From NCBI RefSeq assembly GCF_000745965.1, contig NZ_JQKI01000013.1, positions 1 to 64,000 on the forward strand: DNA of 64,000 nucleotides. The letters are read 5' to 3'. How positions within the stretch are numbered: position 1 is the stretch's first letter; every line of letters begins with the position of its first letter. Shown here in pieces: positions 21,599-24,158 of the stretch. The notes beneath the pieces are model-generated. The model was not told the origin of the DNA. It saw only the letters and a list, made by a program, of their open reading frames with translations, and did no database searches. The position numbers and the translations under genes were made by a program. The DNA is from Edaphobacter aggregans DSM 19364. GTDB taxonomy: Bacteria > Acidobacteriota > Terriglobia > Terriglobales > Acidobacteriaceae.

Positions 21599-22134
21599 AA
21601 CGGCTTACTATGCACTCGGCGAAGATTCTTCTCACACTCGTCATCACGCTTCCGCTCGCTTCACCCATCACACTTGCCGCTCCGCCAAAGCCTTCGTGGC
21701 GCGCTGCGACTCCTGACGAACTCGCCGCCGCACTGCCCGCTCGCGCGCCGGTCGAAAAGGAACGCATCGAAACCGAGATGCGCACCGCATCCGGCATCAT
21801 CGATACACGCGGCAAGCTCATCGCCGGAGTCGTGCTGATCACCGCCGGCTACTCGGCCGACGGAAAATACTCTCACTACTTTCTAGTGCAGTCGCCCATC
21901 ACCATCGCCGGCATCGCCCTGCCGCCCGGCTCCTATGTCATCGGCTGGCAGCGCGGCGACGACTCCCTTGCCGTCGCCTTCTACGACGCCGCAACAGGCT
22001 CCCCTCGGGGCACCGCCACAGCTCACCGAATTCCAACCGGATCGCGCGTCGAGAGCTTCCGGCTCTGGCCGCCGAATGACCATGCCATCCTCCAGATCGG
22101 CCGCTTCGCCCTTCCGTACACGCTAGGAGATTAG
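21595..22134 (+). CDS. Small exported protein of unknown function
   Basis: The 179-aa product has a signal peptide (about 1-28, ending LAA). The mature part contains DTRGKLIAGVVLITAGYSAD and SHYFLVQSPI, and looks like a small beta-rich domain. I do not recognise a family. Its ATG overlaps the regulator stop (ATGA), so it is probably made with the kinase/regulator pair and may be an accessory or output of that system. An internal Met at 21610 is an alternative start. It overlaps the convergent next gene by four bases. Confidence 0.72.
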   Translation: MKRLTMHSAKILLTLVITLPLASPITLAAPPKPSWRAATPDELAAALPARAPVEKERIETEMRTASGIIDTRGKLIAGVVLITAGYSADGKYSHYFLVQSPITIAGIALPPGSYVIGWQRGDDSLAVAFYDAATGSPRGTATAHRIPTGSRVESFRLWPPNDHAILQIGRFALPYTLGD

Positions 22135-23801
22135 TGATTCAGCCGTGACTGCTTCGGCTCTCCTGAGTCCTGACCCTTGCGAATCTCTTCGCCCAGCAGG
22201 ATCGCCTCGGCGATCTCGAGCATCGACTTTCTTCGCTGGCGGCTCTCCCGCTGCATCATCCGGTAGGCCTCCTCTTCGCCAACCCCCAAGTCGCGCTGCA
22301 GAATTCCCTTCGCGCGCTCGACAGCCTTGCGAGCCTCCAGCCTTCCCGCCAGCTGTGCATTCTCGTTCTCCAGCCTCGCCCGCTCCACCTCTGCACCCAC
22401 CAAGTAGCCGATCGTCGACAGCAGCCTCACCTCATTGGCCGTGTGATGGTACGACTGGCGATGCTGCAGATTCATGACGCCTACCACCTTGCTCGCGCAC
22501 AGAATAGGCGTCGAGAGCATCGCCTCAAACCGGTCCTCCGGCAGATTCTTGAAGAGCTTGAAGCGCGGATCCTCCGACGCATTCGAGGCGATCGCTACCG
22601 GCTCACGATGCTCCGCCACCCAACCCGTAATTCCCTGCCCTATCTTGATGCCCAGGTGGTCGATCACGTCGGCGTGTGGGTTCTTCGAGGCGCGCAGCAT
22701 CAGCTTCTCTCCCTCAAGCACATAGATGAAGCACGAGTCGCAAGGAATCACTGTCGTGACAAAATCCACGATCCTCCCCAGCACCTTGTGAAACGAGTCT
22801 GCCGCCGCGATCCTGCTCGTGATCTCATGCAGAAAATCGATCGGCGCGATCGGCCCCGCCGCCTGCGCGTTCGCCGCTGCCTGCTTCTCGCTCTTGCTGT
22901 CCTGGGCAACCGCCACACGCAGTCCCACCTGCCTTGTGTTCAGGCTGCGCGCCAGGCTGTTCTTCTTCGCCTCCACCAGCCTGCCCGCATTCTGCGCCGC
23001 CTCGTTTACCAGAAAGCCCATCTTAGGATGCGACGGCTCAAAGTCCGGTGTGATGCCGTGCTGCTCCAGCTCTTCGGTGGTCGTCGGCCCGATCGAAGCC
23101 ACCACCAGCGACCGCAGCCCCGCTCGCAGAGCGTCCATCGACTCCATCTGCGCCGCCACTTGAAACAGATGAATCACCTGCGCCGCAGTCGTGAACAGCA
23201 CCACGTCCACGCCGCCGTTCGCTACGCCCAGAACCGCTTCGCGCAGCGGGCCGAGATCCTCCGGGAGCGCCCACTGGTACACCGGAACCTTCGTCACTTC
23301 AGCGGTGTTCTCCGTCAGCGCCTGCAGCAGCTCCGGGTTCGAGACACCGTACTCCTGCACCGCCACGCGAAAGCCGGCGAGCGAGATGCCGAACTCCGCT
23401 TCCATGGCCGTCATCATCTCACGCCAGGTATTCGGCTCCGGAGCCACGACCGCAATCGGCACCTTCAGCTCCTTGAGCGCCGCAACCGGCTTCGGACCGC
23501 GTGCCGCCACCCGAACCTTCCTGAGAGCCTCCAGAAACTCTTCGCTCCTGCCAGCCGACTCAACGATGCTCATCAGCGCGCGCACCCCGACCCCCGTCAG
23601 AAAGACGACCAGGTCGAAGCTACCCCCGATCAGTTTTTCCGCAAAGTCCAGGGCCAACCGGTTCGACTCCAGCGGAATCTCGCGCATCGCAGGCACCACA
23701 AACGGCTCGCCTCCGTACGTCCGGATCAGCTTCGCCATCTCGCTCGAACGCCTCGACTCCAGCGATAGAACTCTCAGTCCATCAAAGCTTGCAGGTGCCA
23801 T
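22131..23801 (-). CDS. Uroporphyrinogen-III-synthase-like / GAF / ANTAR fusion protein
   Basis: The 556-aa product has three parts. The first ~255 residues match the HemD fold (LSLESRRSSEMAKLI, VFLTGVGVRAL, VPVYQWALPEDLGPL, VVLFTTAAQVIHLF, ASIGPTTTEELEQHGI). A GAF domain follows (about 310-470; FLHEITSRIAAADSFHKVL, GQGITGWVAEHREPV). The last ~60 residues are an ANTAR RNA-binding antiterminator domain (LEARKAVERAKGILQRDLGV, EEEAYRMMQRESRQRR). The start at 23801 has GGGGAG six bases upstream; an upstream Met at 23840 has none. It may regulate transcripts by antitermination in response to a tetrapyrrole-related ligand, which is inference. No haem gene lies nearby. Confidence 0.88.
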   Translation of the reverse strand: MAPASFDGLRVLSLESRRSSEMAKLIRTYGGEPFVVPAMREIPLESNRLALDFAEKLIGGSFDLVVFLTGVGVRALMSIVESAGRSEEFLEALRKVRVAARGPKPVAALKELKVPIAVVAPEPNTWREMMTAMEAEFGISLAGFRVAVQEYGVSNPELLQALTENTAEVTKVPVYQWALPEDLGPLREAVLGVANGGVDVVLFTTAAQVIHLFQVAAQMESMDALRAGLRSLVVASIGPTTTEELEQHGITPDFEPSHPKMGFLVNEAAQNAGRLVEAKKNSLARSLNTRQVGLRVAVAQDSKSEKQAAANAQAAGPIAPIDFLHEITSRIAAADSFHKVLGRIVDFVTTVIPCDSCFIYVLEGEKLMLRASKNPHADVIDHLGIKIGQGITGWVAEHREPVAIASNASEDPRFKLFKNLPEDRFEAMLSTPILCASKVVGVMNLQHRQSYHHTANEVRLLSTIGYLVGAEVERARLENENAQLAGRLEARKAVERAKGILQRDLGVGEEEAYRMMQRESRQRRKSMLEIAEAILLGEEIRKGQDSGEPKQSRLNH

Positions 23802-24158
23802 CACGAACTCCCCAAAAGCCATAGAAGCTGCAGTTTGCATTACCAAACGGTAAATTTCGACTTAAGCGTAGGGTCTGTTGTCCATCATTTTACAGACACA
23901 CCCCAAATCGCATAGTTCCATGTTCTCCCTGCCGCTCTCTCGGGCCCGGGCCGTTCCATCGCAACGACGGCTGTGCTCCATGCGTTCGTGTCCCACCTTC
24001 GTGTTACATCGCCACTGAGAGCGCCTCATTTTCTCTATCGAAATCTTTGGCCGCATGGTCTACCCTATACCGCGAGGCAGCACACCACTTGCACTGATCG
24101 ATTCAAACAATTCGGCTCCCGAACCGCACCACCGATCGCTTTCGTTCCTCCCCCAACG
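23802..24158. other. Divergent intergenic region with a TTACC-AAAC-GGTAA dyad
   Basis: The 357 bases separate the HemD/GAF/ANTAR gene (leftward) from the sigma-factor gene (rightward). They contain a palindrome TTACCAAACGGTAA at 23840-23853, about 40 bases before the ANTAR gene start, placed where an operator or leader hairpin could act. I see no ORF with coding character and no clear -35/-10 pair. Confidence 0.4.

Follow-up and report, generated by a model that had tools for sequence, protein, structure and literature searches.

The window analysed here is a stretch of 64,000 nt from Edaphobacter aggregans DSM 19364 (contig NZ_JQKI01000013.1). On its minus strand, an open reading frame at 22131–23846 opens at a TTG codon at 23846, while a better start, which is also the start found in relatives, is the ATG at 23801. 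From this ATG (22131–23801, minus) the frame encodes a protein of 556 amino acids. The features of the locus are the following, where clade A denotes the group of close relatives to which the window copy belongs (see below).

22131..23801, minus strand: fusion protein with HEM4, GAF and ANTAR domains; 556 aa when started at ATG 23801, the frame being open as far as TTG 23846
23007..23744, minus strand: HEM4 (uroporphyrinogen III synthase-like) domain, putative sensor; Pfam, Foldseek and PDB sequence match
22389..22799, minus strand: GAF domain, nearest to PtsP GAF domains; Pfam, PRK11061, PDB and Foldseek
22197..22358, minus strand: predicted ANTAR RNA-binding domain; Pfam and equivalents of NasR residues
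23887..23896, minus strand: TCTGTAAAAT, conserved minus-10-like element upstream of the gene, from an upstream alignment of 13 clade-A genes; a putative promoter element of the HEM4-GAF-ANTAR gene

An initial sequence-only reading, which also placed the gene at 22131–23801, had proposed that HemD-like, GAF and ANTAR domains are joined in this one protein, and Pfam, AlphaFold and Foldseek all confirm it. The Pfam matches lie above their cut-offs (HEM4, 2.7e-38; ANTAR, 8.6e-16, with 57.9 bits against a curated cut-off of 27.3; GAF_2, 1.1e-13; GAF, 3.6e-13) and, numbered from the TTG, span residues 35–280 (HEM4), 350–486 (GAF) and 497–550 (ANTAR); the same Pfam search returned no winged-helix and no NIT match. 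The nearest solved sequence to the HEM4 part is the Thermus synthase 1wcx (7.8e-12), and the GAF part lies near PtsP (PRK11061, 5.8e-17; PDB 3e0y, 3trc and 3ci6). PtsP-type GAF domains sense nitrogen status. The ANTAR part matches the solved ANTAR proteins Rv1626, AmiR and NasR. Mapping residues by a constant offset, the equivalents of NasR R340, K341, K345 and K347 are R506, K507, R511 and K513, with K345 changed to R, while NasR W362, R366 and N373 are replaced by Y, Q and R. The AlphaFold model, built on a 35-row alignment (mean pLDDT 82.6, pTM 0.51), contains a HEM4 domain, a GAF domain and a single long helix (470–520) that runs from the GAF domain to the ANTAR helices. Foldseek ranks uroporphyrinogen III synthases first (Thermus, 1.5e-16) and PtsP GAF domains next.

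We searched the E. aggregans genome (assembly G000) for other proteins with these domains. The profile searches returned a single ANTAR match, the window protein itself, and two HEM4 matches, of which a stand-alone protein scores 198.6 bits versus 134.5 bits for the fused domain. The stand-alone gene is the second after a hemC-like gene and lies two genes before a HemQ-like gene, both named by sequence recognition, and so the separate hemD that had been raised as a check on the sensor idea is present, near hemC. The best NCBIfam profiles are NF004584 and PRK07239 for the fused domain, the latter presumably an NnaR-type model, and PRK05928.4-2 and the HemD/HemX model for the stand-alone protein. 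The N-terminal half of the window protein is thus like Thermus-type HemD in fold and sequence, but unlike it is fused to GAF-ANTAR and accompanied by a stand-alone HEM4 protein near hemC in the same genome. Because that second protein is there, synthase function is not needed from the fusion protein, whose HEM4 domain probably serves as a sensor.

Profile and sequence searches of the same genome found no nirA, nirB or nirC. NIR_SIR matched two of its proteins, recognised by sequence as CysI-like and CobG-like, and there is no PF01226 match, hence no nirC. The assembly comprises 8.18 Mb in 345 contigs with 7.2% contamination, and some small contigs may be foreign; the surroundings of the window gene share neighbours with relatives. 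Next to the gene and divergent from it, the ECF sigma half of a suggested sigma/anti-sigma pair holds up (Sigma70_r4_2, 8.7e-9). For the anti-sigma half, the following gene has no Pfam match, and so that label comes only from the appearance of its N-terminus. Of 12 clade-A relatives inspected for gene order (L037, L039, L041, L054, L132–L137, L211 and L216), L135 alone has an ECF-like gene no more than two genes away, and we rejected the ECF sigma gene as a functional partner because it is not a conserved neighbour.

When the full-length protein was searched against 200 genomes of the order, 98 of them had matches at E ≤ 1e-20, and by hand count of the match list 62 genomes contain a near-full-length fusion; in G082 it is in two pieces. 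We also scanned one genome per species across 84,980 species and retained the best 80 loci of at least 488 relatives. These best 80 are labelled Acidobacteria or Edaphobacter, Granulicella, Terriglobus, Acidipila, Bryocella or Candidatus Acidiferrum, with the exceptions of L243 (Rhodanobacteraceae) and L239 ('bacterium'), and 64 of them hold the full fusion. Since near-full-length matches recur in 62 of the 200 genomes and 64 of the 80 best loci, the fusion is neither a chance product nor an assembly join.

Among these 64 full fusions from the best 80 of at least 488 relatives, 49 have nirA, nasA, its FeS partner or nirB nearby, as counted within the fetched stretch, which often ended at a contig end; the other 15, four of them from clade A, have no such nitrate gene in the stretch. 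Pfam matches of example neighbours include NIR_SIR, a flavodoxin/FAD/NAD reductase, a molybdopterin oxidoreductase, a 4Fe-4S protein, an MFS transporter and the outer-membrane barrel types Alginate_exp and Phenol_MetA_deg, while nirB was named by sequence recognition. The fusion is therefore a real acidobacterial family, found mostly beside assimilatory nitrate and nitrite genes. At four loci (L266, L267, L281 and L282) the protein is split, with a HEM4 gene adjoining a GAF-ANTAR gene, whose GAF and ANTAR domains Pfam confirmed in L266 and L282; the L282 pair directly follows nasA and nirB. L052 belongs to another family of the order; there nirB is grouped with a stand-alone HEM4 gene and a GAF...ANTAR gene, and a match to the leader model R2 described below (E 0.0017) lies just upstream of nirB. 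The split pairs and the L052 arrangement suggest two interacting partners and a later fusion event. GAF-ANTAR proteins lacking HEM4 also occur with no nitrate genes close by (L050, L279, L280 and L283–L289).

We found that the nirA leaders carry a recurrent hairpin. Scanning from −400 to +120 relative to the called start and leaving the loop free, the pattern GCTC-N6-GAGC occurs in 39 of 45 leaders as the second hairpin of a pair (H2), with the form GCUC-CNNGAN-GAGC. Loop positions 1 and 4 are C and G in 39/39 and position 5 is A in 36/39, while positions 2, 3 and 6 vary. A first list of H2 had required G4, whereas this count did not, and it excludes a match at −345 in L076 whose loop and place fit an opposite-strand porin leader. 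The stem pattern by itself was counted 244 times in the same loci (2.02 Mb, both strands). Six leaders lack H2 (L051, L067, L068, L071, L072 and L074); in L067, L068, L071 and L072 it is in the FeS-nasA leader instead. The first hairpin (H1), typically GGCAC-CAUGCY-GUGYC, lies upstream across a linker of 21–37 nt (median 28), and the two-hexaloop pair is also found in some nasA-FeS, porin and nirC leaders.

We aligned 20 of 47 leaders, chosen for a clean H1 located by a pattern that requires G4 and a closing AC/GT; the other 27, whose H1s are irregular, were left out. In H1, four of six pairs show changes on both sides, though only 8 of the 20 rows form the outermost pair, and the alignment's covariation is 0.184 versus 0.097 when shuffled (0 of 500 as high). 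The four H2 pairs are invariant in these rows and thus uninformative on covariation. In six leaders from genomes that also hold the window's clade, the first loop is 8 nt. A search of four loci against Rfam returned two weak, unrelated matches and nothing relevant. Paired hexaloop hairpins exist in relatives, as H1 and H2 of the nirA leaders. They had been expected in hem, cob and cys leaders, and they sit instead in leaders of nitrate and nitrite assimilation, not of hem or cob, the latter two covered through whole-genome covariance-model searches only. Of the original picture of a HemD-fold sensor on an RNA regulator, the HemD-like domain and the RNA-binding end stand, and hem and cob transcripts as its targets are not supported by these searches.

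The covariance model R2, built from these 20 leaders of 19 genomes, gave 33 matches at E ≤ 1e-3 in 29 of the 200 genomes. The full fusion is present in 28 of the 29, and the remaining genome, G180, has an ANTAR-end match near a contig start. Apart from the 19 training genomes, the fusion is present in 9 of 10 positive genomes compared to 43 of 181 overall (hypergeometric 1e-5, with relatedness between genomes ignored). Weaker matches, up to E 0.5, are found both in genomes that have the fusion and in genomes that lack it, and most of them are noise. Other genes follow four of the 33 matches, namely a formate/nitrite transporter (G091 and G061) or a porin (G131 and G180); the G061 transporter matches PF01226 at 1.5e-66, while the G091 gene fits TIGR00790 below cut-off. 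In G068, a PF01226 gene begins about 110 nt after another of the 33. Among the best 80 of at least 488 relatives, several of which are training genomes again, there are 23 matches at E ≤ 1e-3 in 21 loci, and none at this threshold in the clade-A loci L211, L212, L213 and L216. Four loci also have a weak R2 match (17–19 bits) on the strand opposite to the nirA hairpins, some 210 nt away from them and directed towards the porin and HEM4-GAF-ANTAR genes (L044, 7688–7755 plus; L093, 5955–6020 plus; L090, 5824–5888 plus; L087, 9744–9810 minus); in these four loci the operon that encodes the regulator may be under autoregulation.

Terminator-like hairpins follow H2 in 22 of 47 leaders, compared to a shuffled mean of 15.4 (maximum 17), and under stricter cut-offs in 14 versus 10.1 (maximum 14) and 8 versus 5.8 (maximum 9). 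As this excess over shuffled leaders is only slight, the antitermination step of any mechanism is weak.

We then located the window copy within the family. A quick-method tree of 86 rows, in which the labels of L132–L137 were set by hand, places it in clade A, a group of 15 Edaphobacter-type rows (SH-aLRT 96; two pairs identical) nested inside the nitrate-linked family. No nirA, nirB or nasA occurs in the fetched stretch of any of the 15. Of the 11 genomes with clade-A copies, seven (G045, G065, G105, G033, G006, G068 and G176) also hold a nitrate-type copy together with a nirA-like second match, and the other four (G000, G010, G074 and G177) have neither. The frame is full-length in all 15 rows. 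Compared to three relatives, the window gene has an overall dN/dS of 0.11–0.15, with 0.11–0.16 for HEM4, 0.04–0.05 for GAF and 0.01–0.03 for ANTAR, which is 97% identical; the protein linker reaches about 0.5 in two comparisons, the third being saturated at synonymous sites. The ANTAR end is the most constrained part of the window copy, and at this dN/dS and identity we take the RNA-binding end to be in use.

Searches for its targets in the E. aggregans genome gave no convincing hexaloop pair with R2, with a second model (R3) or with patterns. The best R2 match (21 bits, E 0.14) is inside a gene. R3, built on six sister nitrate leaders, recovers those six at E < 1e-13 and misses a seventh (G068); its best match (E 0.02, G000:C1:557455, identical to L101) lies between convergent genes. 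The H2 pattern has 35 matches compared to 70 for a control pattern. We inspected the 30 that had a fetched locus: 22 are inside genes according to a simple gene finder, and the other eight (L101, L111, L116–L119, L121 and L124) are all within some open frame of at least 60 aa. A partner hairpin was found for L101 and L124, and we consider both unconvincing, as L101 lies between convergent genes and L124 at the end of a 93-aa frame. Three matches of a hairpin-pair pattern are all in open frames, and autoregulation of the window copy was rejected because its upstream alignment yields a promoter-like element and no hairpin pair. A genome-wide lack of ANTAR target hairpins, which had been named as evidence against an RNA-binding role, so far describes this genome and not the family.

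We propose, at a probability of roughly 0.6, that the family is a one-component, tetrapyrrole-reading, RNA-binding regulator of nitrate leaders and that the window copy is a retargeted, constrained paralogue. In the commonest form, the HemD-like domain would read a tetrapyrrole signal, the GAF domain would read a second signal, perhaps nitrogen status, and the long helix would relay both to the ANTAR end. The ANTAR end would then bind two hexaloop hairpins (loop C-N-N-G, C:G closing pair) in nirA, nasA-FeS, nirC and porin leaders, and transcription of a bound leader would run on, so that the cell would produce its sirohaem-dependent nitrite reductase when this is of use. ANTAR proteins usually act by antitermination. 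The window copy would be an Edaphobacter-type paralogue that arose inside the nitrate-linked family and acts on other RNA targets. The domain architecture, the family, its gene neighbourhoods, the leader hairpins and the constraint are observed; we infer binding of the hairpins through a changed loop code, antitermination, the ligands and the retargeting of the window copy. A more specific version is tentative, and we would lean against its holding in full: that the HemD fold senses a tetrapyrrole and directly gates an antiterminator whose loop code is C-N-N-G rather than A-N-N-G, coupling sirohaem supply to nitrite reductase expression, and that the Edaphobacter duplicate was retargeted with its RNA-binding end nearly unchanged.

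Alternatively, the HEM4 part could be an active second uroporphyrinogen III synthase that boosts sirohaem along with nitrite reductase, the ANTAR end regulating the same genes. Its fold does match the synthases, and its nearest solved sequence is one of them. However, a separate and better scoring HEM4 protein is encoded near hemC, E. aggregans has no nirA or nirB to serve, and the HemD domain of S. coelicolor NnaR is described as inactive in the available text of the reports on it (PMC6277429, PMC11162112), which together make an active synthase improbable. The leader hairpins could also be regulated otherwise, by another protein, Rho or translation, with the ANTAR protein a mere neighbour, and the lack of clear terminator enrichment and the departure of loop position 1 from the published ANTAR code would fit this. 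We nevertheless regard such regulation as unlikely, because R2 matches co-occur with the fusion across genomes and are also found before nirC and porin genes located away from the regulator, and because G4 and a C:G closing pair in a paired hexaloop form the ANTAR signature as described in the accessible parts of the published work. That the window copy lost its function along with the nitrate genes and is now decaying would account for a genome with no nirA, nirB or nirC and no detected target, but the 15 full-length frames, the low dN/dS, lowest in ANTAR, and the seven genomes that retain a clade-A copy beside a separate nitrate-type copy make decay very improbable.

An RNA-binding regulator of nitrate leaders can be compared with three known systems. 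According to the available text of earlier reports, published ANTAR targets comprise a pair of hairpins, each with a hexaloop that has A1 and G4 and is closed by a C:G pair, with linkers of 5–12 nt in E. faecalis eut and 2–25 nt accepted in actinobacteria (PMC3369931, PMC7496416, PMC8164766). Relative to these descriptions, the acidobacterial leaders share the two hairpins, the hexaloops (in clean cases), the C:G closing pair and G4, whereas their loops begin with C or, less often, U and their linker is longer, at 21–37 nt. Klebsiella NasR, a NIT-ANTAR protein, is alike, as far as its accessible description goes, in its ANTAR output, nitrate leaders, two hexaloops, G4 and C:G closing pair; the acidobacterial system differs from it in a HEM4 plus GAF sensor rather than NIT, in C1 and in the longer linker. 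Actinobacterial NnaR is described, in the portions available, as a HemD-like domain fused to an OmpR-type DNA-binding domain (PMC6277429, PMC11162112). It shares with the acidobacterial family the N-terminal HemD-like domain, a separate HemD elsewhere in the genome and, at family level (49 of 64 full fusions among the best 80 of at least 488 relatives), a tie to nitrate and nitrite assimilation. Unlike NnaR, the acidobacterial output is GAF-ANTAR, hence RNA, and the window copy lacks nitrate genes that it could regulate. The family thus looks like an RNA-level counterpart of NnaR. We class it as an ANTAR-regulator variant that is closest to NnaR in input and biology and to NasR in output, and that is itself not NnaR, NasR or HemD.

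We found no report of a HemD-ANTAR fusion in the open-licence PubMed Central literature. A study of Acidobacteria genomes lists genes for nitrate assimilation in several of these genera, and no such regulator is named in its available text (PMC5900883). The family places a HemD-like domain on an RNA-binding output in another phylum than NnaR's, again mostly beside nitrate and nitrite genes. As a second independent system with short candidate RNA targets, it would make testable the question of HemD sensing that the accessible part of the NnaR literature raises (PMC11162112). The hairpins are candidate ANTAR targets for Acidobacteriota, none of which we found named in the literature searched, and their C1 loops suggest that the ANTAR loop code can change.

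Minor observations concern sulfur assimilation. We considered cysI and cysD as clade-A targets, cysD being close to the clade-A gene in several genomes, and rejected ANTAR control because their leaders contain short cysteine-rich frames and, in the case of cysI, a terminator-like hairpin. Such frames, with CCC-type runs, precede both genes in 11 of 11 Edaphobacter-type genomes (cysI leaders L139–L149, in E. aggregans at G000:C21:27470; cysD leaders L188–L198), although some of the cysD frames exist only with a non-ATG start. These leaders look like cases of cysteine-codon attenuation, for which we found nothing before these genes in the literature searched. The cysI leaders also have a CCCACTC..GAGTGGG-like hairpin and a T-run next to the start. 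Separately, L037, L054, L091, L134, L217 and L218 have cysD, often with cysN, at most about 10 kb from the HEM4-GAF-ANTAR gene, a proximity that spans both clades and may reflect chance or shared sirohaem use.
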